Origin: Bryum argenteum
Lineage: Eukaryota; Streptophyta; Bryopsida; Bryales; Bryaceae
Direction of reading: 5' to 3'
NCBI GenBank assembly: GCA_037043015.1
Contig: CM073321.1
Location: 20,767,001 to 20,831,000, forward strand
DNA length: 64,000 bases
Positions 8,584 to 60,575 of the stretch are shown here, one piece after another (position 1 is the first letter of the stretch; the number at the start of each line of letters is the position of its first letter). The notes beneath the pieces are model-generated. The model was given only the letters and a program-made list of their open reading frames with translations. It did no database searches and was not told the DNA's origin. The position numbers and the translations under genes were made by a program.

Positions 8584-8596
8584 TTTCCTTCCACTT

Positions 8597-16206: not shown

Positions 16207-16520
16207 TTAAATATTTATCCCTGGTCCCGGGATAATTTTACTATCTAGATCCTAGTGATCATTATCCCCGGGTCGGCGATGATATCTTTCTCCGGGTCTC
16301 ATTGATGCTATCCCCAGGTCGGGGATACTATACCCTATTTCAGTTCGTCAATATTTATGCCCAAGTCGGAGATAATTCTAATTTCTTTTTGTCAATGATC
16401 ATTATCTTCAGGTTGAGAATAATTTTAATTTGCTGAGCTCATTCATCATTACCGCCGAATCGGGGATAATTTTATAGTCTCCAGCATCGATAATTATCAC
16501 TTTGTCGACGATACTGTCTA
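16207..16520. repeat. Family-1 palindrome array
   Basis: Six or more degenerate palindromes spaced about 50-60 bases. The best are near 16,214-16,235, 16,259-16,282, 16,308-16,331 and 16,450-16,475. Half-site consensus is TTATCCCCG(A/G), giving a 21-bp palindrome with a 1-nt centre in the clearest copies. The array begins immediately where the tandem array's last module is cut off and lies upstream of the plus-strand transposase remnant, so it belongs to that element. Confidence 0.75.
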
Positions 16521-25481: not shown

Positions 25482-25700
25482 GCAGTTTAGCTCGAGTTGA
25501 GCTAAATTGACTAAGATAATACATTCTACAGTTTAGCTCGACTCGAGCTAAATTGTATGGCATGGAGATGTCTGCAGATTAACTCGAGTCGAGATAAACT
25601 GTATGGCAAGCATATTTCAGCAGTTTAGCTCGAATGGAGCTAAACTGCAATATGCATTAGGTCGGACAATTTAGCTCGAGTCGTGCTAAACTGCATGACA
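25482..25700. repeat. Family-2 palindrome array
   Basis: Five 21-bp palindromes spaced about 45 bases, near 25,486, 25,532, 25,578, 25,623 and 25,669. The half-site is TTTAGCTCGA with a 1-nt centre; two copies have one or two changes in a half-site. The array lies between the transposase ATG and the presumed leader and promoter to its right. The same palindrome occurs in the MITE at 10,000-10,160. Confidence 0.9.
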
Positions 25701-26274: not shown

Positions 26275-26396
26275 AATGGGCGCGAACTGAAGTGTCAAAA
26301 GTTAATAATGGGCGGGAACAAAAGTCTCGACATTTAAAATTTGGTGGGATTGGGGTTATAAGGTTTAGGGTTTAGGGTTTAGGGTTTCTGATTTTA
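26275..26396 (-). promoter_or_regulatory. Telo-box cluster with E2F-like sites
   Basis: The plus strand shows four uninterrupted TTTAGGG-type units at about 26,362-26,390, which on the gene's sense strand are AAACCCTAA telo-boxes. Next to them are GGGCGCGAA (about 26,279), GGGCGGGAA (about 26,301) and related words, close to E2F/DP binding sites. In plants this pairing marks promoters active in dividing cells. Its location upstream of the leader, palindromes and ATG fits the family-2 transposase promoter. An interstitial telomeric repeat is the alternative. Confidence 0.5.
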
Positions 26397-40196: not shown

Positions 40197-40279
40197 TCTC
40201 TCTATAAAACGCGACCCGGAAACACAAGTAGGCGAAGACGGCCTTCCACGGGAAGCCGCACAAGAACAACGGCTACACA

Positions 40280-40645
40280 GTGGAACATTGCCAGGAGCCG
40301 AGGGAGCGTGCGGTCATCATGTTCCTAGCGCCGATCATTCACGCGGAGAAGCCGCATCGAATCACCGTCCGGCTTGCCAACACCGTCCTGGGGTCCGTGC
40401 GAGGAGAGCAAGAAGTCGACTGGGGGATCATCATCCGCGACTTAGTCGTCCGGCTCGCGGAGAATGTGGGTAAGACCCGACCGAGCCTGATCACTCCTTT
40501 TCTTTATCATTTGTATAAAAAGGAGGAGGTCCTGACGGAAGAGGAGGAATCGAACTACGAGATCGCGTTGTCGTCCCAAAACAACGGCGTTTTCGACTCC
40601 AAAGAGGACGCGACAGCAAAGCCATCTAATCGGATGACGAAGAGG
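40280..40645 (+). pseudogene. Element C gene, 5' part, cut by element D
   Basis: Open from ATG 40,280 to the insertion site of element D. The protein has basic and hydrophobic blocks (IMFLAPIIHAEKPHRITVRL; TRPSLITPFLYHLYKKEEV) and an acidic tail. Across the empty site the downstream frame reads DDEEDVAGSNEEDTQ, an acidic run that crosses the junction, but that frame has a TAA two codons before it, so the copy also has a 1-base frameshift. Unknown function, carried by element C. Confidence 0.5.
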
Positions 40646-40649
40646 ATGT
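40646..40649. repeat. Left target-site duplication of element D
   Basis: ATGT, repeated at 60,572-60,575 directly outside the terminal inverted repeats. Confidence 0.85.
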
Positions 40650-40675
40650 AAGGCCTTATTCATTAAATTGAGACA
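40650..40675 (+). repeat. Left terminal inverted repeat of element D
   Basis: 26 bases, one mismatch to the inverted right end at position 5 of the repeat (C against G). Confidence 0.9.
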
Positions 40676-41140
40676 CATTGAAGTCTCAATTTAATCTCTG
40701 CTATAAATAAACTTCTAAATATGCAAATTAAATTGAGACATTCCATTAAATTGATACTTTTTGAGTGTTTTGATAATTGAAAATTCTTTTTAAATAGATA
40801 AAGTGTTAATATCAAACATCCCATGATACATAATAGAAAGTGATTATTTGTTAAACCAATTTGAGACATTCCATTAAATTGAGATTCTCAAAATAACTTT
40901 TCAAAGGTAAAGTTTTAGTTAGAATAATATGCTATTTATTTCTAAATTGGATAGATGAAGTAAAGACAAAGTCCTCGTTGCACAATCTACTAGCTAGAAT
41001 ACAACTTTATCTACTAGCTAGAATACAACTATGAAGGAAAGTATTCTATCTATTTCCTACCTGCAATATTATAACAAAGAAATGCCCCTTTAGACACTAA
41101 GACACTCTACAATGTGAATCTTCAACATCGAAAGCATATA

Positions 41141-43994
41141 TCATCCTTCTGGAGTAGATGCGTCGTCTTCAGAGTTTGTCGTAAAAGCATTCACTGATGC
41201 CTTGATGATGTCAATTTGAGGCGTTGGTATAGCTATCTTGCGATCTGAAGTTGATTCGCGCGCTCTTGGCTTCCAAGCTGTCATGATACATGATGTGTTA
41301 GACCATGTTGGATCCATTGTTCGATCTTCCCGCCACACATTCCCTTTTTTTGTGTCCCATCCTACATACGTGTCCATATTGATATGTTTTCTAGTCATAG
41401 AGCCCAATATTGAATTTGGATCATATGCATATGTCCGGGATCCGGACTTGGATTTGTTTAGGCTCTAGTAAGCCATAATGGCCTTGGATCATCCTCTGCG
41501 GGACGCACTGCAACAAAATATCCTGCAAATGTATCGCGATTTACACGGAATGAAGCACGCGAACGGTCACGGACACGTCCTACAAAGGGTTCATCTTCCG
41601 CATCCTCTTCTTCCGTGCAAAGCCATCTCCATGCATGAAGTCAACCTCGTCAAGGACAATTCTAGAAGCCGGCCAAAATCCATCAACTAAACTTTCACGT
41701 GGCTCGATCGATGCATCGAGAGCAGCTCGAACACCTTTCCAATAATCTCTTGAAGGATTGTTTTGCCGTCTAAATTCTCCAGAGAGATCCTCATCAGCCA
41801 TTCCTGTCCAATGTGCAATGTACCCATCTAGCCCTTTCTTGACATCATTGAGTAAACTTTTATGTTCTAGGATGACAGGTTTCGGTGAACCAGATGGAAC
41901 ACAAGGTCTACCATCTTCAGTTTCACCCCACAAGCGAATCCCTTTGCCATGCTCTGGTAACCAATCCTTGTTAGTACACAAATTCTTGTACTCCATTATA
42001 GGCCACCCATTCGAATCCATGCAGAACTTAAATTGCTTTGCCTTGGAATGACCCTCTAGAAAGTCACCGCCTGTGCCAAAATAACCATCGCAAAATTCCT
42101 TGAAATCGGGAACCTCTTCAATTAAATGGGGAATGACAGGTTGTGTTTCACAGTCCATGAAGGATTTCATAAGTCGTGGGATTGTTGGATAGTCATTTGT
42201 ATTCAACTTCGAGCTCCATCGGCCGAACATGGCATCTATATCTTCATGCGTGTGTCCAACTATGAGGAAGTTCATGTAAACTTCACGAAAAATTCCTTTG
42301 TATACAAGAAGTGAACAAAAGGCCAAAAGCCATCTATTCTTGTTGTCCCCTGAAGCATTATCTAGCTGCAAGACTAGTATAGGGGGCAAAGCTTGAGCAG
42401 GGACAGGAGCATCAGGTTGAGGAAGAAGGGAGTCAACGCATGTATCTGAACCTTGCAGAACTGCATTGGATAATGTCGATCGAGTATTCTCATTTGAAAA
42501 TAGCCTACGGGATGAATTCCTAGGTTTTCCTTCAAGATCTCGTAGGAGCTTTGCAAGAGATCCAATGGTTGAGTTAGAATTTGCGGGGAAGATGTCAAGA
42601 CCATAATGCGCGTATTTAACATCTCCATGACCGTGGGCAATCATTCCCGTGACTGCAACAGGCATTTTTGTGTAAGAATCTGTTGCCTTGGTCTTGTGAG
42701 AAAAGTGTGGGGACGCAGTCTTGGAGTGATCCATTTTATCATGGATGATCGTCAGCAGCTTGTGAGGAGAATCATCCGAAACGGTCCGATTGAAATAGTA
42801 TAGTTCTCTATGTGCCCTTTGAGAGATGAGGTGGCTTTCCAATTTATTTGACCACTTCTGCTGTGCATACGATAGAGGTGTGCAAGCGCTTCGAAGTTGC
42901 TTGTATCTATCACACAGGCCACATTGAGAAAAAGTATCACCTCGGGCCTTTGGGGCAAACTTTGGAAATGAAGAACGCCGAATGTTACTCAGGCCACCTG
43001 AGGAAATTGGCGACAACTCGAATCTTGCATTCATCTCATTGATGTGAGCTAACTTGTCACTCCAACAGAACGCAGATGGCAATACCATGGCAGGGACTTT
43101 TTCACCGTTCGCGAGCGTCCTTGTTTTGTGAGGCATTTTGTCAGCATCAGAAACTATGAGCGTACGAAGCGTCGCTGCTGCTTGGACCGTATGTAGTCGG
43201 GGTTTTTTCAACCCCACATTCCCGTGACCCTCAGCTTGTTTCCCACTCTTGGACATTTCCTTGTACCTGTAGAATGTAGCTCTAGAAATACCATGAATGA
43301 TCCACCAAGGAGTAGGACACACTTCTCTACCTTTCAAGGTGATCCACTCCAAGCCTGCCAGGTCCTTGTGGATCTGTCTATGGACGTCAAGGAGACACTT
43401 CTTACGAGCATAGACCCCATCATTCACATGCAGTTGAGAGCGGATATCATGAATATGTCCACGGGGAAATGGTTGTAAGCAATTTGCCTCACAACACGAT
43501 TGTGTGGAGACTGCAATGATAGATGCTGGCGCCAGCAAAGCATCTTTCTTGGGTGGAGCAACATTCTCTACTCTATGACGCATAGAGTCATATGAACGAA
43601 CACCTTTCCGACCTTTTCGATTAACTGCTTTCATAGCCTCTTTGTACTTATGAGTTTGCTCATGGTCGTAGAGACTCACGCCATCAAGCAAAACATGTTT
43701 TGTGTCCCATGCGTGGAAGGACCACATCTGTCCGGATGGGAAATGCTCCTCAGATAGGGACTCCGCAATTTGCACCATAACCTGATTTTCACCAAGAATT
43801 AAGCCTTCTATCCCGTCATCCACATCCGGATCCAGGTTCTGGCACAATGCTTTGGCCACGTCAAGACCTTCATTGTTACGAAGGGTCACAACTTTTAAGA
43901 TCCATTTAGCCCGAGAAATGCCGTCGCAGACAGCGACACCAGGAGCCAAAGTAGGCAATGACCTTGCAAACTCTTCTGGACGATGCATATCCAT
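41141..43994 (-). pseudogene. Element D transposase, DUF7869-like, frameshift near C-terminus
   Basis: Main frame is 804 codons from ATG 43,994 to 41,580. Residues: CCEANC cluster at 167-172; CGLC at 358-361; HDKMDHSK at 418-425; LQLDNASGDNKNR at 542-554; GHTHEDIDAMFGRW at 580-593; IPHLIEEVPDF at 621-631. The invariant Asp of MDHSK, the Asp of LDN and the His/Asp of GHTHEDID look like the catalytic set of a DDE-type transposase, inferred from conservation among the three copies in this window. After FARKK a 1-base shift moves coding into another frame (PFVGRVRDRSRASFRV...GYFVAVRP), then come a TAA and a further shift to WDTKKGNVW, ending at 41,141. The family-2 copy has this tail as one open block. 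A splice acceptor (TGCAGG) lies directly before the ATG. The copy may be inactive or may contain assembly errors. Confidence 0.85.
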
Positions 43995-44158
43995 CCTGCA
44001 AGAAAATCAAAAATATATAACAAAATTAAGTTCAGATCGATGACTGAAAGAATAACAATTCTTCATGTCAAACGCTTATTCCGTCCACCGGCGAAAATGA
44101 CAGTGGTATATCATGAATATGATAAAGACAAGAAGAAGAGCGCTATAAGGGACATGAA

Positions 44159-45130
44159 TCGTCGACTCGACGATACCATCTTAATAGTTTCCGTCTCCAA
44201 GCTGTGGAGTGAAGAAAGAATCCTCACGAATCGTCGAGCCGACGATATCCACAGCAACTGACTAATAGTTTTCTTACACCTCTACAGACAGAGGCTATCA
44301 AATCTAACTAACATACTTATTTGAGTAGGTTGTCCGTACAACAACATAGAGTATATCTTGATAGCCATTAACCCAATTAATCAAAGTTATCGTCGACCCG
44401 ACGATAACATGACGGACGACCACATATAACTAAGATAAAGTACTCCCCGGCCGAGAATAGATGAGGTATCGTCGACCCGACGATAACCACCTATGGTAAT
44501 AATAGCATTAATCATAATATACTACCTTTTGTGCAGCTTGAAAGATATCGTCGACACGACGATAGCATGTCATAGAAGTAATATTTTCAGTTTACATTCT
44601 CGTATTGGATAACATTTATGTTATCGTCGACCCGATGATAAATGGGATAGTTCCAGACGACATAATAGAGATCGTCGACGCGACGATAAATTGACATTCA
44701 TAGAGGTTAAGAGAAGAGGTTATCAAAAGAGGTTATCAAAAGAGGATACCATAAGAGTTATCGTCGACACGATGATAACCTGGCATACTAATCATTTAAA
44801 TGTGAAATGAACCTACTGGTAATCATGATGGTTATCGTCGACTCTACGATAACCAGGCAAAAAAAATACTGCAGGCCCCCCGAGGACTGCACGCCCCCTC
44901 GAAGACTTTACGCCCTCCGAGGCGACCCTCAGGGTTATCGTCGACACGACGATAACTTGGCATGCTAATCATTTAAATGTGAAATGAACCTACTGGTAAT
45001 CATGATGGTTATCGTCGACTCTACGATAACCAGACAAAAAAAATACTGCACGCCCCCCGAGGACTGCACGCCCCCTCGAAGACTTTACGCCCTCCGAGGC
45101 GACCCTCAGGGTTATCATCGATCCGATGAT
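44159..45130. repeat. Family-3 palindrome array 1, twelve copies
   Basis: Copies near 44,159, 44,230, 44,388, 44,467, 44,546, 44,621, 44,671, 44,758, 44,831, 44,934, 45,008 and 45,112. The half-site is TTATCGTCG(A/G), giving a 21-bp palindrome with a 1-nt centre, or ATCGTCG-n3-CGACGAT in shorter form. Most spacers read ACC or ACA on the plus strand, which is GGT or TGT on the strand of the minus-strand gene. Spacing is about 50-160 bases. Confidence 0.95.
44757..45110. repeat. 177-bp direct duplication within array 1
   Basis: Two adjacent near-identical copies (44,757-44,933 and 44,934-45,110), each with two palindromes, a CATTTAAATG-like word and a CCCCCCGAGGACTGCACGCC block. Confidence 0.9.
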
Positions 45131-45190
45131 GGCACAAATCCCAAGGCATTTCCGAATTTTTCGGCGTAAAAGACGCAATGTACGTTGCGG

Positions 45191-45665
45191 TCGTTGCCAA
45201 CACATGTTTGGTAACAAACGTTAACACAGATACAACAACAATAAACTCAACCGATATACTACAGAAAAATTGAAGAACAATAAACACAAATAAAGACGAC
45301 GAACAATGAACAGAAGCAAAGACGATCAGCTCGACAACAAGAGGCGGATTATACATTCTAGACAATCGCAAAAGGAAGTGTCGTGGAATGTTAGCTAACT
45401 TGCGGCGGAAGTTCAGAGCCAACACCGTGAAGTAGCGCCCAAGAATTGATAGAAAAGAAGAGAAGAAGAGAGGAGGAGAGAAAGCGCGGAAGAGCACCGC
45501 CTCAAGCCGAAGGAAGAGCAGCGCAAGAACTTGACCGGGGTTTACACAACACAAAGAGCAGTGATTAAAGCCAAGGCGGTTCCTCACGCGAAGAATACCA
45601 GCATTCAATGGATGAATTCCGCGCGCAAGGAAAGAGCGGGAATAGTTTGCCGCCAAAAATGAAAT
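45191..45665 (-). other. Presumed leader exon of the element D transposase
   Basis: GC-richer than its surroundings. The long minus-strand frame 45,021-45,656 has no recognisable domain and runs into the palindrome array, so I take this as non-coding leader. Confidence 0.35.
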
Positions 45666-45960
45666 TCAAACGGTCATTGTTCAAACGGATCTTCTTATAA
45701 GACATATTCAAGATAAGATCCGGCTAATAAATGAGAACCCACGACTTTCGTAACGAACTTATTAGCAGGATCTTAGGTAACGAATATACGTCCCAAATAG
45801 CATCCTCTATGAAAATCCGCTTTGTGAACAAATTCATAATTAAAGGCTTACAAAAATAAAACCTCAGGGTTTAGGGTTTAGGGTTTAGGGTTTAGGATTT
45901 GGGGTTTCGGTTTTAGGGGTTAGAGTTTAAGGGTTTAAGGTTTAGGATTTTCTGGTTAAG
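45630..45960 (-). promoter_or_regulatory. Telo-box cluster upstream of the element D transposase
   Basis: Four consecutive TTTAGGG-type units at about 45,868-45,896, degenerating to 45,960; on the sense strand they read AAACCCTAA. GAGCGGGAATAG at about 45,635 resembles an E2F site. Same order as at 26.3 kb, which supports a real promoter arrangement. Confidence 0.5.
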
Positions 45961-48900
45961 AATTTAGGGTTTACGGTCAATGCTTAAGGTTTTAGGGGTT
46001 AGTAAACTTAATGTAAGGATTTTTAAAGTAAAGGCTATAAGCTTTCTGCTTAAATAGTTGATAAAGTTCTAAAAGATAATGTAATGAATGTAATTATAAG
46101 TAAATGTTTTTGTTTGGTGTTAACGAATGTAAAATTTTCTAATATTGTTATCATTGATTCACCATTTTACATTTACAATATATAACATATGATTTTTAAA
46201 ATTTGGCGTTAGAAGAACGTTTGTAAATACTTAAAGTAGCATAATGTAGGTTGAATATCAACCATAGAATACAATAATTATGAGTAAAATGTATATTATA
46301 AAAAATATTCTAACTTTACATACGAGACTACATAATCAAACTTAAATGCAATAGTTAGCGACTTTACATAGAGTTTCAAATTTCATAACTTTATTTGAAT
46401 TGTGTTATTGTGTAAAGTGCATATTTATGTAGTTTTATAGTACAACCTATTCTAGATTGGACTTATAGAGTGAGTGTATTATTAAAAGCTTTCAAACTCT
46501 TCTCTCTTAAATACCTAATAGCTCAACCATGATACAAAACTATAAACCTATAGAAGATGTCCTAGGATGTTACAATTATGTTACAAGTTATATTCATGTA
46601 CAATTACTTAAGTAACTAGATTTTTTTTTCATAATTTTCTCAACTAATTCTCTAACAATTCTTATAAGACAATTATGATATTTGCTCTATTATTTCTATT
46701 TTATAATAAATAATAACTTAAATTCATACTACTAAAAGATAGTTGTTTATGTGCCTTTGAAAGTTCATAGTATCTTCTTCTTATAAAATATCTCTTAGTC
46801 TCATCATTATTCTAGTTTCTTAACCTAGATCCTACTCTCGTATTAAATTTTTTTTCAAAAAAAACCTTTGACAAATATTGGTATCTAGCTCTTCTAGGTG
46901 CTCCTCATGGATCACTTTTCCAGTTCAAAGAATTCTCATGTACATGCAATCCAATACAAGAATTGTACTGCAGCGTTCACCGAGGCCAAATTCATCATCG
47001 GTCGGTGTTAACTTGGAGTTGCTGAACAACGCAACAAAATTGATGAAAAAGGACCTCGTCTGTTTATTACAGTAGAAAAATGGCTGAACAAGGTGTCACA
47101 CTTGACCGTAAAGGACCTCATCCGGAGCACTTTCACAAAGGGTCTCTACACTTTTTTTTTTTAAAGGAGAATGTACGCGTGAGACATGTGTCTCACCCAC
47201 ATGTTACAATTGTAGGAATTTCATTTTATGAAACCACGAGTATGAAATTCAATTGTATGAAATTTCATATATATTTTGTGGTTTTTGTGGTGAAACATAT
47301 GCTACATTAGGTTGATGTATTTCTTAAAAGTTTAGGTTTCTCTACATATGTAATACAGTAATATAAAAAGACTCATGTCACAATTTTATCCATTACCTTG
47401 ACACCTTTTTCTAAGAGCAAAATGGGAACTATAAGGTTCCTTTTACTACTTGTTGGTTCATTAATCTAGTTGATCTAACTTCTAATCAATTTTCATGTAT
47501 ATTTGCATTAATGGCACTTTAAATGCATTTTATTTTTGACTTTGATTTCATAACCTTTTAATTAAATCTTAAAGTAATTCTATAATACCTCTCGAGCGAT
47601 TTAAGAATGAGATTAATAAGATAGACACTTATATTTTATTTTTTTTGTGAATTTTTTCCAAATTATTTTGGTTTCAACTTAGAGCAAGGGTGTGGCATGT
47701 GTCTCACCCTCTTGTTAAATACATGTAAATTGCAAGAATATTTGGCTTCAGTAAGGCACATGTTTCATTCCAATATGAAGTAATTTTGAATGTTATAAGT
47801 TGTGATTTATAAGATTTAGATTTACAAAATGTGAATCTTTTGGGTATGCAAGAATTCAGGTAGTGTTCTTTTTTATGAAATCATTTAACAACTTAAACTC
47901 TTTGAAATGTGAAATACAGTATTTGAGGAATATGTGGTCTAAAAGATTTAGTACCCAAAACTAGTTTATATAAAGAAGCTTATGTAGGAATTTTCAAGAT
48001 GTGGGTTTTGGGGTGAGGCATGTGTCATACCCCTTCAAGCTCTTGCAATTTTCATGATTTGAAGCATGGTGTATGGCATGTCTCTCACCCCTTACTTCAA
48101 AATTCACATATTTGATGTCCATAATATAAAATGACAAAGTACAATGTATCAAAACCTAGTCTAATTTCTCATATGAGAAATTTATAGCGGTTTTCCAATA
48201 CCCTTTGGAATTTTTATCTGTTGGAGCATTCTAGTTGATTCATTTGGCTATAAAGTGACATCGAAAAAAGCTCTCGAGTTATTACAACAAAATGATAATG
48301 TTCTTTAGCATGTATATGTATTACGCAAAATGGTATTGCTACTAGTACTTGCAAAGCATCATATTTAACAATGACATACTTGAATTACAAAAATATTTAA
48401 GTTGCTAACAGAGTTGATGGGTAGGAATTGACTATTCATGAATTTTAAAAGGATTATTAATTCTCATCTTTTGATTGAGATTGGACCAAAATTATAAAGT
48501 GTAGGTATTGAGTGAGGCACATATTCCTCTCCTTCTTATCCCTTTATTGACAGAGCGGACCAAATTTGTCAGTGAGGCGCCTTTGCATGGCCAGTGATGT
48601 CAATTAAGGGTTATATAACTTGTTGATGGTAAATGTGGTTCTTAGGGTGAAACATGTGTCACACTTTTTTATGTATTACTTGAAAACTAATTTAGAGTTG
48701 GAATATTTGCCTCACCGCTATTTGAAATTTGAGATTTTGCAAGTGCTTGAATACTTGGTTAAAATACATGATAGTGTATATGACTTACTTTGGAATCTTG
48801 TGAATATTTGTTGATTCATATTAAAAAACAAACTCATTGTATCTTTATTAAGATAGTAACTTATCAATTATCCAAGTATTTGCTTCATAGCCATGTATGA

Positions 48901-50626
48901 GTATACTGAACAAATATTTAATTCATTCCAACTTTTAGATAAGTTAGACTTTTCTTCACTATTGGCTTTTGGTTTATTAGACTCTATAGTTTGCATTTCT
49001 CTTAAATACTAATAATATAATAGGGAAAGAGTAGGTCTTGTGTGAGGCACATGTCCCACCCCATTTCATAATGTTCCAACTTGTATATGTATGCTCCAAC
49101 AAGTTTGGGACAAGGCATGCATAGTATTCCCTTTGTGGATTGTTAAAATATTCAAACTTAAACCATGGAGGTTTGTCATGTGATTTATCTCCTATTTTAA
49201 TACTTGAAATTTGGTTTGCGCTTTACTTAAGTGAGGCACATTGCTCTCTCACTGAAGATTCATAGATTAAAAGTTAAAATACAATGTAATCATGACAAAT
49301 ATACAATGAGCATGATTTTTTTTGGAATTATTTGGAATCAATATTATTTGAATTGAAACTAAACCAAAATGTTAACTTGTTGCATATACATTCAAAAAAT
49401 TGTGATTATAATATTAAGAATTAATCCAAAAATAAAGTGCACATTTCAATTGGCACTTTTAACGAAACCGTTGTTCTTAATGAGTTCCAAACCTTTCATT
49501 TTTGCAACCCCACACACTGGCATGCATTGTGGTTACTGCATACATGTGGGATGCAAACTAAAAATTAATTGGCAACATATAAAGTATGAGATGTGCCAAA
49601 TGTGAACCTTACATCAATCTTTTGGCAATTTGTAATCATCATAAAATTTTGGCAATTTGTAATCATCCAAAACTTTACAAGCCTAAAGAATTTAGAGTTT
49701 AGATGAACACTGCTCTTATTTATTCCAAATTCAATGTTCATTTATACCTTGCTTTATTTTTTCTTTCTACATAAGGCTATATTTCTTGATTCGAATAGTT
49801 ATTTTCATTTTTAGCTGACATACATGTATTGGCTTGTTGTCGCCTTTTCGTGCCAAAATTAGATGTCGCCCTTTGCTTCTATCTCATGTTTGTCTTTTGG
49901 TGATAACTAGTCAAACTTCATGTCTCGTAAGTTGCACAACTTAGTATGGGTCGTCTCAACAGTAGGGCATGCTAAAAGGCATATAAGAGGGTATAAGAAG
50001 CTATAGAGCTCATTCTATTTTTGTTTGCACTTTGCATAGCTTTTATTTGAGCTAAGAAATTTTTTTGATGAATTTTTGTTGGGTAAAGGATTTATTAAGA
50101 TGAAGGTGAACATCTTTCTAGTTGGTGATTTTTTCATTGCAATAGGTATATTGGTAGCATTTCCACCTCGAAGTGAAAATGATGAAACTTTGCAGTTTGT
50201 TTTTTATATTAATATGTTATGAACTCCCGATCTAGAAGGCCTTATGACTCAAATTTTGGTCCACATGATCTTGGATAAGTCTATTACAAGTTTCTACGGT
50301 TTAAATCTAAATAGCTTGTCTTGATTTTCATATATGACGATTTCTATGGAAATGTGCTTTCATGCTAAAAATAGGCTTGGGCGTTTAAGGGTTAAGTAGC
50401 AACAAATATTTGACAATACAAACGTAAAAAACTAAAATCAGCGTCGAAGCAATTAATTTTCTAACACTTAACAAAATTTAGAATGAAAATAAATAAACGC
50501 AAAACCATAAGCGTAATTTTGAGATCTATAAATAGTTTTGTAAATTTTGTAAACTTTTAATTTGTTTGGTATTCTAAATTTTCTAAAATTTTAATTTGTT
50601 AATTTTATATATTATGTTTTCTAATT
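45961..50626. other. AT-rich central region of element D, no gene
   Basis: No coding sequence supported on either strand. Contains the degenerate palindrome family annotated at 47,175-49,260 and may include an older nested element. Confidence 0.5.
47175..49260. repeat. Degenerate GTGAGRCAYGTGTCTCAC palindromes
   Basis: About nine weak copies near 47,180, 47,690, 48,014, 48,072, 48,512, 48,570, 48,647, 49,041 and 49,231. The best reads GTGAGACATGTGTCTCAC. Irregular spacing and decay suggest remains of another palindrome-bearing element inside D. Confidence 0.6.
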
Positions 50627-50642
50627 ATGTTTTTTTTTTTTT

Positions 50643-50704
50643 TGAAATTATCATGTGCATGGGCATGGTCATGCATGACCATGCCCATGCACATGATAAT
50701 TTCA
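50643..50704. repeat. 62-bp perfect palindrome
   Basis: The two 31-base halves are exact reverse complements with no spacer, centred between 50,673 and 50,674. The left half contains ATTATCATGTGCATGGGCAT. DNA or RNA from it would form a long perfect hairpin. It lies just upstream of the plus-strand cargo transcription unit. Confidence 0.95.
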
Positions 50705-50870
50705 TGGCATGGTGGCCATCATGGGGGGCATGATGACCCCGTTGCGCCGCCTTTCCACTTCATTCTTGTTGTCTTGCTCTTCGTCGTCGGCTCTTTTCGC
50801 AACTCCGTTTTTTGCTCCGCCACCTTCTGTCTTCCCTTCTCCGTGTTGCGCCGCCTGCGCGTTGCTTGTT

Positions 50871-50958
50871 TAGTGTGCGCCGCTTGTTTTGTGTGCGCCG
50901 CTTGTTTTGTGTGCGCCGCTTGTTTTGTGTGCGCCGCTTGTTTTGTGTGCGCCGCTTG
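50871..50958 (+). repeat. 18-bp GTGTGCGCCGCTTGTTTT tandem repeat, about five copies
   Basis: Near-perfect copies. The open frames VCAACF (plus) and its minus-strand counterpart arise because the unit is a multiple of three. GC-rich and probably part of a promoter or leader. Confidence 0.9.
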
Positions 50959-51633
50959 TGACCTTCTACCACCAGGTCTCAAGCTCGAATAGCAAACGAT
51001 TGTCTGTGTTTTGTTAAGAGTGGAAAAGGCACGTTAGGTTTTCGGAGAGAATTATTTAAAGCAGCGGGTTCTTCCACGAGAGAAGCTGATTGAGTATGTG
51101 TACTTTTGTGCGGTGCTTACTTACGGTGTGGAGAGGCAAGTGATTTAGAAGGCCACAAAGAGATGGTGATTGTGTGCTAGCGTGTGCATTGGCGGCTAGT
51201 TTCTTGTTGACTTCTCTCTGCGATCGCACTCTAGAGGCGTATTTGAATGCAAATGAAAGCCAATTTGGTAATCAATCGATCGACCCTCATCCTTTATTGT
51301 TTCTTTTTGTAGAAACAATGGCTTGATTGATGCCGCTTTTTCATTCCGCAGCTCATGCAACTAGCTCGAGATGGATTATTTGTTGTGGATTCTTCGCGCA
51401 ATTAGATGTCGATGCGTTTGTTAATTGCTCGTATGGGCATCTCAATGATTCGGCAGCACTTCGTGCGATTCGGGAGGAGTTCGGCGTCTGGGAGCACTTC
51501 GGCAAATGGGCAATTAGGGTTTAGGAGCGTTTAGCATTCAAGAGCAGGTATGGTTTTTACTGTTTTTTAGTATCGCACGTTTTAGAATTACGTTTAGGGT
51601 TTAGGAATCCGTTGATACTTTATCTTATGGTAG
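50959..51633 (+). promoter_or_regulatory. Probable promoter/leader of the cargo genes
   Basis: GC-richer non-coding DNA with two TTAGGGTTTAGG telo-type words (about 51,514 and 51,593), in the same relative place (before a palindrome-filled stretch and an ATG) as the promoters of the transposase genes. No start site can be fixed. Confidence 0.35.
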
Positions 51634-52336
51634 TATCGTCAGGCCGACGATAGACCAATAGAATGTAGTATTGAGAAAATTAATAATAAAATCAAAAAGC
51701 CACCAACTCCAAACACAGTTTAGAGAGCAGTCGCCTGTATCGTCGGGTCGACGATACAAGGGTTCAAATCCCCATATCGTTGGGTCGACGATACAGCACA
51801 AGAAAGGAGGATAAGAATACTGTAAAAGAAGTAGAGTTGAGAAGCAAATTTCAAATATAGTTGATTGAGCATAAGTTGTATTGTCGGGTCGACGGTAAAG
51901 GCTTCAAAAGCTGCATCATCGGTTTGACAATGCAAGGCCACTAGTAGCCTTATCGTCGGGTCGACGATACAACGCTTCATAAATCGTGAGAAGTATTGTA
52001 ATAAAAAATAAAACATTCTAGATCATGAACATACATGTTTCTTACCAGATTCATGACGCTGAAGCCAAGCAATAGAACAGACATTGACGTAGCTATCGTC
52101 GAACCGACGATACCGAGTTTGAAGGTAGCTATGTTGGAGCTAAAGGACCACCTAAAGGACAAAATTAACAAATTTCTAGCGTTATATTCATGACGCATAT
52201 TCATGTAGGAGTATGGCAAAAGATGATCCATACGTCCTTCTATCACCGTTGTCAATGGAAATAATATATAAACCAATTGATTCATCTCTTCCATTTTCTG
52301 ATAGATAACAGAGGCCCTCATCGTCGGGTTGACGAT
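51634..52336. repeat. Family-3 palindrome array 2, eight copies
   Basis: Copies near 51,634, 51,737, 51,775, 51,879, 51,913, 51,951, 52,094 and 52,320. Same motif as array 1 but reading ATCGTCGGGTCGACGAT on the plus strand, so the spacer is GGT along the direction of the downstream gene. Confidence 0.95.
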
Positions 52337-53866
52337 TGGTACCTTAGAATCAGCTCAGAGCTAATTGCATAGCGATGAAACGTCTAACTCAAATCCGTGA
52401 CGCTGATGTAGAAAGATAAAATGGTGGAAGTCGAAGCATATGAGTACAAAGTCACCCTGCATCACCTCGAGCCGTTCGTGAATCCATTGGGAGACGAGCC
52501 ATTTTTTGAAGAAATGGCCGAGACATATGGAGATCTCTGGCAGTTCAGGCCCCATATTCAAACATGGAATTTTGGAGTCAACAAATTCAAGAATTTTGTG
52601 TTCATTCGATACAAGGCGAACGGATCATCTACTTATCCGCCTGAACCACAACGAAGGTCACCATCATCGAGTGCCACAGAGACATCTACATCGTCATCGT
52701 GGTCCGTGCAGTGGACGAGAATGGATTCGAGCAAGATCACTGCCACTCTATTGTCACTGATACAACAAAGGAGCATGGAATTTTTGACATTCAGGACCTC
52801 ATGACGTACTTTGAGGGTACCGAAATGGCCTCCCTGAATATCGAGTTCATCAAGTTGGGATATGTGAGCGGACAATGTGGCTCTGCAAAGTCCATCGCAA
52901 ATCGACTCATGAGGATCTTCCAAACACTCGATCGATACGCCCTGGCAAACGTCCGCTCGTAACCACATTTGCGCGACGAACACCAAACAAGAACCGAATC
53001 GGGTGCATCGATTTCACGCCTAAATTTGGCGTCCACCCCTCCCGGATCTGCAGGGGAGGAGGAGTAACACCGAGTCGGCCTCGGTCGGAGGGTAGGAAGA
53101 GAGCTCCACCTTCTACACGATGGAGTCAATCGAGCCGCAAGCGCAGCGCAAGAAACCCGCTTGGCCGCACCAAGTATTGCAATAGTACCGACTCAAACTA
53201 CGGGGAGTTCAGGGTCAGCATTGACAAACGTGACCGCTAGAGCTGGTACTTCTGATGAGAATCTGGAGGAGTTCGAGAAAACCGCGACCTTACGAGAAGG
53301 AGTTTTGGGATAACCACAAGGATCGCTTTTTCTTGAACATGAACCCGATGGAGGTAGATATCGATCGCTGCATACCGCCAAGGATCGATGTTATCCGAAC
53401 GCCGCAGCAGGACATGGTTGAAGGAGTCGCCAGAGAACTTGTCCAGATGATCGATGTCAAGCAGAGACAGAAAATCTGCCTAACTCCAGTGGATTCCAAA
53501 GGGAAGCTGCTAAAGAACAAGCCAGAAGATTGGGATGAGATCAAGGACGGGAAGTTCATGATCATCAACGGGCAGCATAGTGTTTGGGCATCAAAACAGC
53601 TCCAGAAAGAAGGATGTGGAGAGGTTCGGCGCAACGAGCTCCGCAAATGGAACGCTTACATCATCTGGACATTGGACGCAACTAAACTTCGAGGGATATC
53701 AAAATTCTACAACATCACAAACCACCTGGATCATGCACAACCGTCATGGGGAAACCAGGTAGTGGCGTGTAGAAATATTTGGATAGCCCTAAAGCGGCCA
53801 TATGATGTATTTTCGGAAGCGGTCACGAGGGGTATTAAGGCGGTGCTCAACGTTGTCAGGTTCAAG

Positions 53867-53969
53867 GTAACGTTTCGATCTCAAGTGGCTATCGTTGCAT
53901 CGACGATACCTCTTATGCTGACGTTCACCTTACTTCACAATGCTAACCTGAGCTAATTAACGTACGCAG
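53867..53969 (+). other. Intron with one palindrome
   Basis: 103-bp phase-0 GT-AG intron. A family-3 palindrome (TATCGTTG...CGACGATA) lies at 53,890-53,908. Confidence 0.75.
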
Positions 53970-55295
53970 AGCTTCACGGATGCTGTGACGGAGAGATACC
54001 CGAACATCAATCCAACAGGGGATGGGGCACAGATAAAGTCCGCAGCCAATCTGAAGAATGAGATTCAAATCATCACCCTACCGGACCACAAGTTCGACTA
54101 TTGGGAAAGGTTTCTTCAGAAGCATGCTGATGGCGAACTAATTGACCCCGTCTCGAAATTGCCTTTCAACAAGACGAAGACCTACAAGTCCAAGAGTAAC
54201 AAGCTGAAACGCGAGTTCTTCAGGCGATGCGGATGGTTCACCGACACAGACTTCACCATCATGCCAAGGCGTCTACTTGGGGAAACTCCGGGACGGACTG
54301 CACCATATCCGAAAGTCACTGTTGGGAAATCTCTCGTACTTGTGGCAGACAACCTTGTGTGCGTCGACTGGGTGGCGAGAAGGAAGCGCAAGAAAGTTGT
54401 GCTTGAGGATATCATTTCAATCAAGCCCTCCCTCAAGCTTATCGACGTCGGCGGCGACACCATTGACGCCACATGGAAGGCGTGGAAGATTAGGCACCGG
54501 TTCACGTCGGCGAGCTGGGATTTTCTCTTGTCGTATCCCAGCGCGGAGTACTACAGGAAGCGCCTCCGCAACGAGGCAAAGACAAAAAATGCGGTCGAGT
54601 TGGAGCAGCAGCATCCAGAGGTGGTGTACATGTACAGGAGGTTCATGACGCTGAAGTACCGCCCGAAAGAGCCTCTTGAGAGTGTGCAGATCAGAGGGCT
54701 AGACTTCAAATCAAAGGCTTTAGTCACGAGCAGACATTACACCAACACTGCACGCGAGGTGAATCTGCCACTACTCGACTTGCGCAATGTCCCACGATCG
54801 CAAGTGACCGAGACGAGCGGAGCCGTTGACCCATTCCTGGACTATCTGCGGCATCATCTAGAGCCCAAGATCTCGGAGCCGAACGTCTGGCTGATGGTCT
54901 TGTCTGGAAAGGAAGACCAGAAGGTTGCATCGAAGTTTGCAGCTAGAGAGCTCCCTCAGTATGAGCCGTCTCTCTCCACGTACGTACCAAGTAAGGCGGA
55001 AATGCTGGACAACGTCAGCAATAGGAAGACCGCACCGGACGTGACACTTCTCTTCCTGTTTAAGAACGGAAGTGAAATAGCGAAGGATGCGAAGAAGTGT
55101 GTCAGAAAGAGGTATGATACACCAGCTAATCGCTTGTACTATATAGAGGCCGCCAGAAATACAGAGGCAAAATGGCGGGTGTATCCGACTGAGCTTCGCA
55201 TGGAGTTCTACTTCGAGATACTTGCCGCGTGCGCGTCAGTGAAGGAGAATGTCATTGGCATTCACGCGGGCGCGAAATTCCTCCTCGCTTCTAAG

Positions 55296-55435
55296 GTAAC
55301 CACTCGTATACTATTCCTTGGTATCGTCGGGTCGACGATACCCAGAGCTTTATTTCAACTGTGTGCTTCATAGTAGTGTGAATTATTGTCGGCTCGACGA
55401 TAATGTGATCTAACAGTGTTACATGTATATGCCAG
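55296..55435 (+). other. Intron with two palindromes
   Basis: 140-bp phase-0 GT-AG intron, ending TATGCCAG. Palindromes lie at 55,321-55,341 (perfect) and 55,383-55,403 (one mismatch). It splits the methyltransferase-like motif. Confidence 0.8.
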
Positions 55436-56099
55436 ATGTTCGGAGCTCATTACTATGGGTTTGTAGATCGTGACGACGTGAAGAGCGAAATCAAAATCTC
55501 GGCTCTTGCAGAACGGCTTGACATGAACGATTTTATGCACTCGAACTCGCCGTATTCGAAAGATTTCGTTCGTCCGGTCACGCGGGGTCCCGTAATAGTG
55601 CACTCCGACTCTCCTCCATCGCCACCTATGAATCTAAACTCTCCTGTCGAAGGTGGGTTCGGAGTAGTGCGCCAACCTGAAGAAGTAGGAGCGCATGTTT
55701 CCAATGATCCAGGCATCCAGGGCATTGATCAATACGGGACGAACACATTCCGAGTCTGCTCGAGGATGAATTTTGAGCGAGCTTTCCCCCTCGCACCAAT
55801 AGATGACCAGGGGGCCGGTTCATCTCAGAATCCCATCGACATGGAGACAGATTCTGAGTACGAGGCGCAACGAAACCATCGTTTAGATGACGAGGATTCG
55901 AAGGGCGATGAACAAGCGGACGGTAATGTGCATTTGCAGGTCAACCCCTTGGAAGATCAAGAATTGCCCTCACAGGATCAAGGCGAGCATGATTCCTATC
56001 ATGACAATGCAGTCCAAGATGATGTCGTCATCGATCTGGCTGCGAGAGAGGTGGGACAGCATGGTCTGGTCGCCCAAGTCGGTTCTCAGAATGTCGAGG

Positions 56100-57625
56100 A
56101 TCGTCGGTCCGGCGATGCTGCGGAGCCTGTCAAGGAACCTGGTCCTGACCCGGAACAAGAGCAGGGGTCACATCGTCGGGACGACGATGTACATGATGAA
56201 GTACAAGATCTTCGTCTAGGCCGCAAGGGGGTTGAAAGTGTGGATCGTTGGAGCGACGTTGCACAGGACGATGTGTTGGACCTCCGTCAAGCCGGTGCGG
56301 GGGGTGAAGGGGTCGATCATCGTGCCGACGATGTGGAAGAGGATGTTGTGAATCCCCTTCAAGCCGGTGCAGGGGATGGAAGGGTCGATCGTTGTGCCGA
56401 CGATAGACAAGATCAGGATGCTGATACCCGACATGACGGTGCAGGGGTAGAACACGTGGAACAGGACCAGTCTATAGAGCCTCTGCATGATGGAACTGAT
56501 CGTGGTGAAGGCCAAGATGCAGCGGATCGTCGACTCGATGATCGGGACGCAGTCAGCAGTCAAGTCACCACACATGCAAGGGCAGACAGGGCCATGCGCG
56601 AGCAAAGGCTGAGAGGAAAGTCTGCAAGCAGCAGCAGACAGGTCATTCCAGAGGCGAGGGTAAACCAGGCGACCCGTAGGCGTAGGCCGACAGGTCGTCC
56701 GGCTGGCGAGGGCGGACAAGACAATCCCGAGTCGCAGGCTCGCGAAGTCGTGGGTGGTGATGACGATGTAGTTGTGACCCAAGTCGTTGAAGAACGGGTG
56801 CCGAGTCCCTCAGAGATCATTCATCTTCCTAGCGATGACGAGTTCGATAAACCGCACTCATCGGACGAGGATGACGAGGAACCCGTAGATCCGGACGCTG
56901 TGGAGTACAAAATCACGACGGCCCCCAACGGCTTGCGGGTCAAGTATGAAAAGAGATATTGGGAGAAGGACGAGGAAAGGAGGGCGAAGAGAATCAGGCG
57001 GGCACAGGAGAAGGAGGAGGTGAAGGCCGAAAACAGGAGGTTAGCTCAAAAGCAAGCCGAGTCGGACAAGATAGTGGAACAACTGCAGGCTCAGATGGCA
57101 GAGATGCAGTTGTTGTTGCAGAGCCGGACCGGAGTCAATCTTGGTGCTGCCGTTTTGTCTTCTCCAGTGCTTCCTCCGTTGACATCCGCCTCCTCTACAC
57201 TAATGCCTCCCGCGTCGACATCATCCCACCCACCTGTTGAGCTCATGGTCTTGAATATGCCCCCGCCTCCTCATTGCACATCGGCACCTCTACCTTCTCC
57301 TACAGAGCATCAGCTGCTTCAACTTGCTCCAACTTTGGCTGTGTCTCCTCATCGTCGAGCCGACAATACCAGTAGAGCAGTTCCCTCTGCAAACGAGGAC
57401 GTCATAGAGTCGACTCCTCTCTGCCAGTTGTCAACGATTCCATCTACCGTTGAGGGGCCTGTCAACCTCTGGGTGCCTGAGACGGCTGCACCAATGGGAT
57501 CTCCTGCCGTACAGCATCATCGCCACGACGATAATGTTGATGTCAAGTCGCAAGCGAGTCCTCGTATTGAGCACGTGCCAAGAGCTGGAGATGCTCCCGC
57601 AGACTTGGATCGTCGAGCCGACGAT
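56100..57625 (+). repeat. Family-3 palindromes inside the last exon
   Basis: Nine copies at 56,100-56,116, 56,171-56,189, 56,244-56,260, 56,316-56,332, 56,388-56,404, 56,526-56,542, 57,351-57,367, 57,516-57,532 and 57,609-57,625. All lie in the same codon phase and encode (D/H)RRxDD variants: HRRDDDV, DRWSDVA, DHRADDV, DRCADDR, DRRLDDR, HRRADNT, HHRHDDN, DRRADDA, DRRSGDA. Confidence 0.9.
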
Positions 57626-58315
57626 GCTGATGAGGAGGACGAAGTCGAGAAAGTCGACTACGAGTTGGGAGCTGACGACCTGGAGGTTGGGAGCTCGGAA
57701 CTTCAAACGGCTCCTGAAGTTCCTTCTCAGGACCCTAGTGCAGACGACCAGGTACAGACCTCTGACCCTTACTGTTTTGATTGATTCCACGCCCCCCACT
57801 GGAGTCTCTCATGCCGTGTGAGCGTAGCCCAACTCCGTACCGCTCTTCGTATCTAATTTGTATCTTATGCTTGTTGATAGGATATCAACTTCGGTTCTTG
57901 AGTGCTCATGGCGGACGACATTCAAGTCCGTTGCTCGCGTACTTGTATTGTAGTGTACTGCCTAGTGTAGAGAGTAGATTCGAGTGCCAACTGCGGCTTG
58001 CGAAATTATCCCAAATGTATTATGATATCCTTGTTTATAATGATATGCCTATTTTGAAGGCCTTTTTCTGCATACATGCCTAATTGTCTTTGTTTGTCAA
58101 TGTTTATGCTGCACAGTTACGAATCAGTGTTTGCGTGCCACTCTCATTTGAACTGGAAGCAATCTGTCCACTCCCTGGCTCTCCCATTTCTTCATTACCC
58201 GAGGTAACTCCTTGATCAATCTCTCTGTGTCTTCTGTCTTGCTCAGGTAGCTGTCGAGGATTAGGTAGCTGTCGAGCGTGCGATAGAGATCGTCGGGAGG
58301 ACCCTCCCGCCTCCG

Positions 58316-59097
58316 CCGCGGAGGAAGTGGTTAAACATTGTCCTCGACTTGAATGACGTTCTCCGCCATTCTACGTATAGGTCCAACCACAGTGGACCCA
58401 GACCGTACACTCTGGGGACAATATTCGCTCGCATAGGACTCCTACTGTCATTGGTCCTAAGGTGGTGTTTGCGAGGAAAAATATCGGGGATTTTCTCCGT
58501 CAGGTTTCCGACATTGCGGACAAGGTCTTAGTGTGGACTTCGATGATGAAGCATAATGCTGAGGGTGTCGTTGGCCACCTCTTTAGCGGTGGCAAACATC
58601 CTTTCGATGTCCTCTGCCAAAAGGATTGCACCACGATCCAGCTCCCCGACGGGAAGTCCTTTCAGCTCGGCCACAAGGTTGTGTACATGAAAGTGCTCTC
58701 GGAGGCTGTGTTCAGCAATCCTAGTGGTGACACGTTCTTTTCCCCAGACAATACTCTTCTCATTGATGACTCTCCCCAAAAGAGTATCTGCAATGAGAAC
58801 GGTAATGCTCTATTCCTTCGCACCTGGAGTCCCCGGGATGGCGAGAACGACTTCCTCACGGAAGACCTTCTGCCTTGGCTAAACCGCCTAGATTCCCACG
58901 AGGGACATTTGCAGCGATTCGTGGAGGACAATCGCATTGGCCAAAACCCGTTGCGTCCCGGTGACCCGACCGCCAAGAAACTCATCGCCGGCATGTTGAT
59001 GTCTTCGCAGACCATGGGGACTCAATTTAGTTTACCTGGGATAGGCTTAGTCATAGAACATGGGCGCACATTTACTAGGAGACCTGGCTTTCTGTAG
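58316..59097 (+). pseudogene. FCP1/NIF-type HAD phosphatase-like cargo gene
   Basis: RRKWLNIVLDLNDVL (about 58,319-58,363) holds HAD motif I, with nucleophile Asp in DLND. After a 1-base frameshift near 58,410-58,430 the frame 58,462-59,097 continues: VVFARKNIGDFLRQV, motif II in VLVWTSM, then motif III/IV in LLIDDSPQKS, followed by NGNALFLRTW, DFLTEDLLPWLNRL and QRFVEDNRIGQNP. This order is typical of NLI-interacting-factor/FCP1-like CTD phosphatases. The enzymes remove phosphate from Ser in proteins such as the RNA polymerase II tail. The frameshift makes this copy doubtful. No ATG start was assigned. It follows the ParB-like gene on the same strand after about 530 bases of non-coding DNA. 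Confidence 0.7.
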
Positions 59098-59363
59098 CTT
59101 CCTTACTCCATCTACATATCCATCTACATTTTGACATTTCCATCTACATTTTGTAATTATTGTACCGTGATGTACACCATGTATTTACCGGAAGTTAATA
59201 ATAAAGGAGTTGGATTTATCCCTAATTCTTGGTATTATTACTATCGGTTGTCTATGGATGAATTTCCTAACATTGAATCTACTGTGATGGAATATGCTTC
59301 TTGTTTGACCCTGCCTGACGCGGTTCTCTATGTAACGAATGTTTGTGTACATAGGATGAATGC

Positions 59364-60137
59364 ATGCGCGTAGCTGTGCCGCGTCAAAGGCCATCCACGA
59401 GCCTCCTCTCGGGGTTCGTGTCGGAGGGGGGCAGTTGCGGCACTATTGTCTGCTCCGTGCCGTACCTCCTCCGGTCTGCCGCAGACGCTACATCTGCGGC
59501 CATCGACTACTCCAAAGGGCACATCGAAGACCGCGTGGTCGACAGTCCCCCGAGTCGCGGATTCGTGAGGACTCCGACTTGCTCTCCCTCTCCACTAAAA
59601 CGGACATTGCCGACCTTAGGCAATTGCTTCTCGCTTATCGCTCGGACTTGTGAGGGATCAATTCGCAAACTAGTCCTCCTTCCTGTTATGACGCTCGAAC
59701 CTGAACCCCTCGTGGCCGCTCGAAGTCCTGCTCAAATTTTAAAGGATATTAGCTGCGAAGCAAGTGGGGAGTGCGCGGAGAGCCTACTTCAACATCGTGT
59801 CCGCCTTTCGCCAGAGCGTCGTCTTCACTTTCCGACATTAACTGCAACACCGGTCACGAATACAAAGACTCCCAGTACAACGGTGTCTAGAGACTCCGGA
59901 CGACCTCCTCGCAGATCACGGTCCGTCTCCGCTTGTGGGCCCTCTGATACCATCCCTCCAGTTCGAAGGTCGAAGCGGAAGGTCTGTGCAGCTGAACAAG
60001 TTAGCGCAAGCGAAGCCTGCTCGTGGGGAAGTGGGCCCCTCCATCGATCACGACGCGACGATATTTTCAAAGGGCTTGCAAAGCTCAGAGCACAAGAAGC
60101 AGCTCAACTTAATGACACAAAATCGGATGTGCGCTGA
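59364..60137 (+). CDS. Unknown basic Ser/Pro/Arg-rich protein
   Basis: 257-codon frame; the M at 59,364 is a GTG-type or other non-ATG start, with an ATG at 59,356 in another frame, so the start is uncertain. The middle has a stretch RDSGRPPRRSRSVSACGP and a basic KRKVCAAEQ patch. Near the end SRRDDIF is encoded by a decayed family-3 palindrome (about 60,047-60,062), again giving RRDD. Low complexity and likely disordered. No family recognised. Confidence 0.45.
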   Translation: MRVAVPRQRPSTSLLSGFVSEGGSCGTIVCSVPYLLRSAADATSAAIDYSKGHIEDRVVDSPPSRGFVRTPTCSPSPLKRTLPTLGNCFSLIARTCEGSIRKLVLLPVMTLEPEPLVAARSPAQILKDISCEASGECAESLLQHRVRLSPERRLHFPTLTATPVTNTKTPSTTVSRDSGRPPRRSRSVSACGPSDTIPPVRRSKRKVCAAEQVSASEACSWGSGPLHRSRRDDIFKGLAKLRAQEAAQLNDTKSDVR

Positions 60138-60545
60138 TTGAACTACTATGGCGAGAAGTCATGTTGCAGAAGATTATACATGTAGATCGTTTAGTAGTAG
60201 TATATACCCGTACATTAATTCTTTTGAAGTCTACTATGTTTGTTGACCTCCAGCAATGCTATTTTTGTATACAATTACGTATTAAATATATTACCCTCTT
60301 TGAAAAGCACTCACTTTTTCTTCTATGAGCAATTGTTTCATTTATGTTTCATAGATGCATGTCAGTTTCATGCAACCTGCACACTATTAATGCTGGAGAT
60401 GAATAACAATAAATGTCAATTTGAACTTCTTCAGTTCAAGATTTAAATATTTACCAACTCATCACTTCTACATATCGTTGGGTTCAACAACTATTGATTC
60501 ACTAGACTTCTACATCTGTTTCTGAAAGTCTCAAAATGTACATTT
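60138..60545. other. AT-rich right flank of element D
   Basis: No gene seen. Probably the 3' end of the cargo transcript and subterminal DNA of the transposon. Confidence 0.5.
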
Positions 60546-60571
60546 TGTCTCAATTTAATGAATAAGCCCTT
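60546..60571 (-). repeat. Right terminal inverted repeat of element D
   Basis: Reverse complement of the left end with one mismatch. Followed by the ATGT duplication at 60,572-60,575. Confidence 0.9.
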
Positions 60572-60575
60572 ATGT

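Follow-up and report, generated by a model that had tools for sequence, protein, structure and literature searches.

A family of large DNA transposons in the moss Bryum argenteum carries a predicted ParB/pseudo-methyltransferase gene whose protein class is tracked by a family-specific palindrome

A 64 kb stretch of the Bryum argenteum genome (C1:20767001-20831000, hereafter the window) contains, between positions 40650 and 60571, a precise DNA transposon of the cut-and-paste type that is approximately 20 kb long. Its second gene encodes a protein with a predicted ParB fold and a predicted, degenerate amino-methyltransferase fold, and a CpG-rich palindrome occurs dozens of times along the element. 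Related copies across the genome feature at least three classes of this palindrome, and palindrome class tracks protein class. The novelty lies in these family-specific palindrome-protein pairs. By analogy with the VANDAL transposons of Arabidopsis, we lean, with confidence a little above even, towards a reading in which the protein binds the palindrome of its own family and marks family DNA, most likely against silencing by the host.

The ParB/pseudo-methyltransferase gene lies on the plus strand and comprises three exons, whose limits were inferred from the genomic sequence, using GT..AG signals and open frames common to copies. The class A palindrome, ATCGTCGNNNCGACGAT, is found in both of its introns and in its last exon:

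52421..53866, plus strand: exon 1; its frame is shifted in the window, and 513 codons are open in two other copies
53867..53969, plus strand: intron 1 (GT..AG), with one class A palindrome at 53891-53907
53970..55295, plus strand: exon 2, open, 442 amino acids; C-terminal half with a predicted beta-class DNA amino-methyltransferase fold
55296..55435, plus strand: intron 2 (GT..AG), with two class A palindromes at 55323-55339 and 55385-55401
55436..57784, plus strand: exon 3, a low-complexity tail with nine class A palindromes (56100-57625)

A search of the assembly with exon 2 gave 99 rows (95 of 1005 candidates scored), which were merged to 84 gene copies. In 20 of these, picked across identities and contigs, a 351-base stretch spanning the beginning of intron 2 was read. 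Nine of the ten class A relatives (45-57% identical in exon 2) feature the class A palindrome in the intron at no more than two mismatches, and the tenth, L055, has none. All seven introns from copies at 31-34% identity (contigs C1, C2, C4, C5, C7, C8 and C10) contain a class B palindrome, TATCCCCGNNNCGGGGATA, and all three from copies at 31% (C1, C9 and C10) contain a class C palindrome, TTAGCTCGNNNCGAGCTAA. Palindrome class and protein class therefore agree in 19 of 20 introns, and no intron holds a foreign class at up to two mismatches; the sole near-crossing is a class B match at three mismatches in the class A copy L050. A shuffle control for the intron palindromes gave 0-1 of 1000. The inner CG-NNN-CG is constant across classes and the arms differ, while exon 2 is 32-35% identical between classes A and B, 31-32% between A and C and 29% between B and C. 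In the whole genome there are 434 exact class A sites, as well as 1722 sites of class B and 9509 of class C when one mismatch is allowed, with no matches to any of the controls. A class C palindrome with another spacer was tried and rejected, as it occurs nowhere in the window and once in the genome. The preliminary description of this DNA had called the palindromes family-specific on the strength of a single class, and this proved correct.

In the window, 31 class A palindromes were found at up to two mismatches, all of them within the element; at up to three mismatches there are 35 in 64 kb against 1.48 expected, and 33 of these are inside the element. Two arrays, defined by pattern count, account for 19 of the 31:

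44158..45130: array of 12 class A palindromes (up to two mismatches), upstream of the transposase gene
51635..52336: array of seven class A palindromes (up to two mismatches), upstream of the ParB-like gene

The remaining sites are all in the ParB-like gene (one in intron 1, two in intron 2 and nine in exon 3). The nine exon 3 palindromes share one common reading frame, in which they encode a DRRxDD-like peptide, and five of them are spaced 72 bp apart. Across 12 copies of the element, the number of class A sites ranges from 13 to 42 per copy. The 361 class A sites in these copies feature 300 arm mismatches. Of these, 207 are CpG transitions (C to T or G to A), which fits methylation of the sites when copies are silent.

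Structure prediction indicated a ParB N-domain fold in P0003, a relative of exon 1, with a model that resembles KorB among others; a PH-like fold was also weakly predicted there. The exon 2 model gave fold matches to CcrM, M.MboIIA, MTA1 and METTL3. Beta-class DNA N6-adenine methyltransferases feature a DPPW/Y motif and a glycine-rich motif as their catalytic and S-adenosylmethionine (SAM)-binding signature; in a 22-row alignment examined by eye, the DPPW/Y motif is replaced by LDxRxIPR and the glycine-rich SAM motif is degenerate. The nucleotide-binding box of ParB usually carries arginines, and the cytidine triphosphate/nucleotide-binding box of the moss protein reads INGQHSITAS by eye, where the usual arginines are apparently replaced. 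A helix-turn-helix was not seen among the matches to the ParB-domain model, parts of which were barely tested. The ParB-like gene matched no Pfam family above cut-off, nothing in PHROGs below E 0.05 and no PDB sequence below E 0.9. A viral or phage origin was considered and rejected, since no viral or phage relative was found: exon 2 gave 57 pattern stretches in IMG/VR with no relative confirmed, and an exon 1 homologue had no match in phage records (E up to 0.1).

The limits of the element are defined by the following features, the target site duplications (TSDs) being supported by sequence and copies and the terminal inverted repeats (TIRs) by copies and a genome pattern search:

40646..40649: left copy of the 4-bp TSD, ATGT
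40650..40675, plus strand: left TIR, AAGGCCTTATTCATTAAATTGAGACA
60546..60571, minus strand: right TIR, the complement of AAGGCCTTATTCATTAAATTGAGACA with one mismatch
60572..60575: right copy of the TSD, ATGT

Genome searches with the ends gave 41 rows per end, including those of the window (40 candidates scored of 65 and 79, respectively). Eleven further copies were fetched, restricted to ends that have a partner in the correct orientation at a distance of 11-28 kb. Both inverted ends are present in all 12 copies, window included (up to four substitutions allowed), and the 4-bp TSD is identical in nine copies (AAAA, AGAA, TTAA, TTAT, ATTT, TATT, GTTG and, twice, ATGT), matches at three of four bases in two and is absent in one. 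Aligned pieces divide the copies into two subgroups, mostly 93-98% and mostly 83-93% identical to the window, and two short copies (11.8 and 15.4 kb) lack the ParB-like exons yet keep both ends. At up to two mismatches, the TIR pattern has 103 genome matches, part of which are ends of related families, compared with none for the reversed control. The predicted empty site, in which the flanks are joined over a single ATGT, has 354 candidate places in the genome; 40 were scored, of which 39 match across the junction at 80-88% identity and the fortieth is the right flank of the window itself. These places are paralogous repeats rather than allelic sites, and their matches straight through the junction indicate that the window copy is inserted in a member of another repeat. 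These results bear out the earlier proposal of a large DNA transposon with precise 26-bp inverted ends that differ by one mismatch, flanked by an ATGT duplication, and they include the further copies with the same ends and duplications, and the empty sites, that it had advised looking for. Sola, Ginger1 and Chapaev are eukaryotic DNA transposon superfamilies that also generate 4-bp duplications, and the element resembles them in these and in its inverted ends. The host site (40232-40651 and 60562-61290) is an open frame of another high-copy repeat. Two more end types, AAGGCCATATTCGTTAAATTGAGAC and AAGGGTGTATTCATTAAATTGAGAC, recur among the listed TIR pattern matches, and some of them adjoin class A and class B gene relatives (for example, C4:24823236 and C1:22515476).

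Two further genes belong to the element:

41144..44006, minus strand: transposase-like gene with a DUF7869 domain (PF25273, E 2.7e-46), from a profile match and homologues
58210..59097, plus strand: NIF/SCP-type HAD phosphatase-like gene (PF03031, E 9.2e-9 on 58381-59097); start approximate

The preliminary description rightly placed one transposase-like gene on the left. In the window, its open frame of 808 amino acids spans 41580-44006 and homologous sequence runs on to 41144; since homologues have about 950-990 amino acids, the gene extends to 41144 and is damaged in this copy, with frame breaks near 41615 and 41395. DUF7869 is the sole Pfam family above cut-off, and by this match the protein differs from the Mutator-type transposase of VANDAL elements. 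With regard to a DDE/D catalytic core, acidic residues are conserved in the DUF7869 alignment; no fold was predicted and no PDB sequence matched below E 0.3. Homologues number 114, and the five with a named source come from Ceratodon purpureus (two) and Physcomitrium patens (three); one of the C. purpureus homologues is, by its locus tag and its 110.5-Mb contig, on the presumed V chromosome. For the NIF gene, 296 amino acids are open in other copies and the Pfam score is 35.6 bits against a cut-off of 21.8. DxDx(T/V) is the active-site motif of NIF/SCP phosphatases, and in another copy this position reads DLNGVL by eye, with Asn in place of the second Asp.

The order of these genes recurs across the genome. 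A search with the NIF gene gave 150 rows (150 of 751 candidates scored), and in 48 of the 84 exon 2 copies a NIF match on the same strand follows within 8 kb, in most cases at a distance of about 3 kb, compared with 0 of 84 on the opposite strand and 4 of 504 at shifted places. This neighbour is found at every level of exon 2 identity (17 of 33 copies at 63% or above, 11 of 19 at 45-59% and 20 of 32 at 30-35%). Likewise, exon 2 lies divergent from the transposase within 16 kb for 25 of 56 transposase rows (56 of 59 rows used), against 0 of 56 when flipped and 2 of 336 when shifted. One relative on contig C4 retains the whole gene order, with the transposase 72%, exon 2 57% and NIF 60% identical, and on its right side, which was read, an inverted repeat of the same type stands at the expected place. 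Among diverged pairs of copies (synonymous divergence, dS, over 0.12), the median ratio of nonsynonymous to synonymous divergence (dN/dS) is 0.38 for the transposase, 0.24 for exon 1, 0.35 for exon 2, 0.71 for exon 3 and 0.42 for NIF, which shows that the ParB-like and NIF genes are kept by purifying selection, as the transposase is. Given the recurrent order and this selection, we regard both as the element's own genes and not as the cargo that they had been taken for. Of the three extra coding regions proposed earlier, those described as ParB/methyltransferase-like and HAD phosphatase-like stand, while the one of no assigned kind does not: an open reading frame at 59355-60137 was rejected for now as a gene, because in diverged pairs its dN/dS (0.59) does not improve on that of a wrong frame (0.54). 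In another genome, a transposase homologue (P0013, 77%) and an exon 2 homologue (P0126, 60%) are perhaps on a single contig of 46,150 bases.

The reader of the palindrome would be a protein of two-fold symmetric partners. The ParB-like protein is the most suitable candidate, since it alone among the element's proteins, besides the transposase, has predicted DNA-related folds, its introns contain the sites, and the letters of those sites can be predicted from its class. We therefore propose a model in which the element would represent one family in a superfamily of large DNA transposons. The DUF7869 transposase would move the element by cut and paste, making the 4-bp duplications, while the ParB/sulfiredoxin-type and degenerate beta-class amino-methyltransferase domains, with a repetitive tail and perhaps a PH-like domain, would form a DNA-binding protein. 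This protein, probably a dimer, would recognise the CpG-rich palindrome by its constant CG-NNN-CG core and family-specific arms, with dozens of targets over the element in the arrays upstream of both genes, the introns and the last exon. Protein and palindrome may have changed together, such that each family would recognise itself only. The most likely purpose would be to shield copies of the same family from silencing by the host and keep them transcribed, in the manner of VANC on VANDAL elements, with the NIF-type phosphatase-like protein presumably assisting. A more specific version, which we regard as speculative and rather unlikely, is that eukaryotic transposons took over a ParB-parS-like system that loads at palindromes and spreads as a clamp against heterochromatin, with an arms race with the host driving new palindrome-protein pairs in each family.

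Several observations weigh against binding and self-marking by the ParB-like protein. The structure models are of modest confidence, with a mean predicted local distance difference test (pLDDT) score of 60 and 67, and three protein classes amount to only a few independent changes. Exon 3, the home of nine sites, is hardly constrained as protein, and conservation between copies is not clearly higher in the arms of the 12 intron and exon 3 sites than in the flanks. CpG decay after methylation could mask constraint on the arms; their weak conservation counts against strong selection after insertion and has no bearing on selection in active copies. No NIF match adjoins the three class C copies that were read, so the link with NIF holds for the A and B groups only. 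Homologues from other genomes were available as protein alone; where the frame continues past the exon into intron sequence, a palindrome of this kind can be encoded in 7 of 14 of them, against 2.15 expected, and in 5 of 8, against 1.25 expected, including arms resembling TATCCTCG and ATTTTCGA, and these expected counts for protein tails are not small. Two of the other-genome arm types were also sought in the 20 introns and rejected, as they were found only at one to three mismatches in introns with class A or B sites; these matches (best one mismatch, in L050) probably represent decayed A or B sites.

The main rival explanation casts the ParB-like protein as a repressor of its own element that governs copy number, along the lines of KorB on plasmid RK2, and would silence both promoters in proportion to copy number. 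The arrays upstream of both divergent genes and the resemblance of the domain model to KorB are consistent with this. KorB also works from distant operators by sliding (PMC11790492), and the class C arms, TTTAGC..GCTAAA (for example, 25532-25552), equal the KorB operator arms TTTAGC(c/g)GCTAAA (PMC2680271). This operator likeness may be due to chance or convergence, though, and no helix-turn-helix was identified. In addition, few sites should suffice for a repressor, compared with 31-42 here, some of them in exons, and overall we consider this explanation unlikely, if ahead of the other three. It is improbable that the DUF7869 transposase, having diverged along with the other genes, is what binds the palindromes, even though an array lies upstream of each of the three DUF7869 genes or remnants in the window and the transposase differs among families too (47-56% identity in a distant group). 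Transposase binding sites usually sit at the ends of an element, whereas class A sites are at least 3.4 kb from the left end and at least 2.2 kb from the right end in 12 of 12 copies, so that these outer stretches are palindrome-free, and their other home is the introns and last exon of the ParB-like gene.

We give still less credence to an active methyltransferase that would modify adenine or cytosine at or near the palindromes and thereby mark self DNA chemically. Its predicted fold matches CcrM, M.MboIIA, MTA1 and METTL3, and ParB-methylase fusions occur in prokaryotes (PMC5512222), but the replacement of DPPW/Y and the degenerate glycine-rich motif argue against catalysis. Finally, the palindromes could have no protein partner, having spread passively by tandem duplication and drifted by family, as some lie within tandem repeats of 177 or 72 bp. 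This is hardly credible: two-fold symmetry with altered arms in three classes, in the same intron, needs paired changes, and sites are found in unlike flanks.

The closest parallel to the proposed family-specific recognition is the VANDAL/VANC system of Arabidopsis. According to PMC5735166 and PMC10398659, the VANC protein encoded by these transposons binds motifs particular to its family, which lie upstream and in introns, and lifts silencing. Tandem repeat formation arrayed the motifs, which differ between related families, and VANC features a variable part with tandem peptide motifs. To that extent, the moss element is similar: the protein of a second gene is tied to short, family-specific motifs arrayed upstream and in introns, and the motif changes together with the protein. 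In contrast to VANDAL elements, it has a DUF7869 transposase, 4-bp duplications, a predicted ParB/methyltransferase-fold protein and a palindromic motif with a CG-NNN-CG core that also lies inside a coding exon, while an anti-silencing function is suggested here by analogy. These differences in transposase, protein, motif symmetry and exon motif indicate that the element is not a VANDAL member. With ParB/KorB and parS/OB of bacteria and plasmids (PMC11790492, PMC2680271), it shares the predicted ParB N-domain fold and many short palindromic sites on the same element, but this is a eukaryotic transposon that is not known to have a role in partition, a methyltransferase-like domain is joined and the nucleotide-box arginines are apparently replaced. 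The Bacillus cereus ParB-adenine methylase fusion Bce_0392 (PMC5512222) likewise unites both kinds of domain in one protein; unlike such prokaryotic fusions, the moss protein has apparently lost its catalytic motifs and has no sequence match in phage records, above cut-off in Pfam or below E 0.05 in PHROGs. The active Physcomitrium patens transposons described in PMC7466625 are long terminal repeat elements and Tc1-like ones. A literature search, with most subscription papers outside its scope, found no description of these elements, and the term DUF7869 was absent. If the proposed reading is true, transposons with family address sites and a matching protein would be known from a second, independently assembled system, outside flowering plants, and a predicted bacterial partition-type domain would be placed in a plant selfish element. 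Three protein-palindrome pairs in one genome would also provide natural material for tracing joint change in a DNA-binding protein and its site, and for asking if recognition of self allows transposons to evade silencing while leaving the host unharmed.

The window has arrays of all three palindrome classes, and each array sits upstream of a gene or remnant of the DUF7869 type. Those of the second and third elements, again by pattern count, are as follows:

25486..25690: array of five class C palindromes (TTTAGCTCGNNNCGAGCTAAA, up to four mismatches), second element
22529..25213, minus strand: DUF7869 transposase gene (E 4.3e-38) belonging to the class C element, whose left end lies at approximately 22085
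16215..16469: decayed array of five class B-like palindromes (TTATCCCCGNNNCGGGGATAA, up to four mismatches), third element
17390..19213, plus strand: remnant of a broken DUF7869 transposase, next to the class B-like array (one piece matches DUF7869 at E 8e-7)

A further three pieces of this remnant are 44-53% identical to the class A transposase of the window. Telomere-like TTTAGGG stretches are present in both the class A element (45866-46000) and the class C element (26357-26390), in each case 4-5 kb from the left end and close to the palindrome arrays. No RNA or tRNA genes were found within the window, and transposon-like open frames of other types are located at 6721-10000 and 32835-34360.

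Contig C1 comprises 44.1 Mb, or 17% of the 258.8 Mb assembly of 25 contigs. Among the listed TIR matches at up to one mismatch, 60 of 64 are on C1, as are 39 of the 40 class C left-end rows and 36 of the 40 host-repeat rows. Repeats of more than one type thus accumulate on C1, which is possibly a sex chromosome. Exon 2 copies of the distant group (30-35% identity) are spread more widely, with 16 of 32 on C1.

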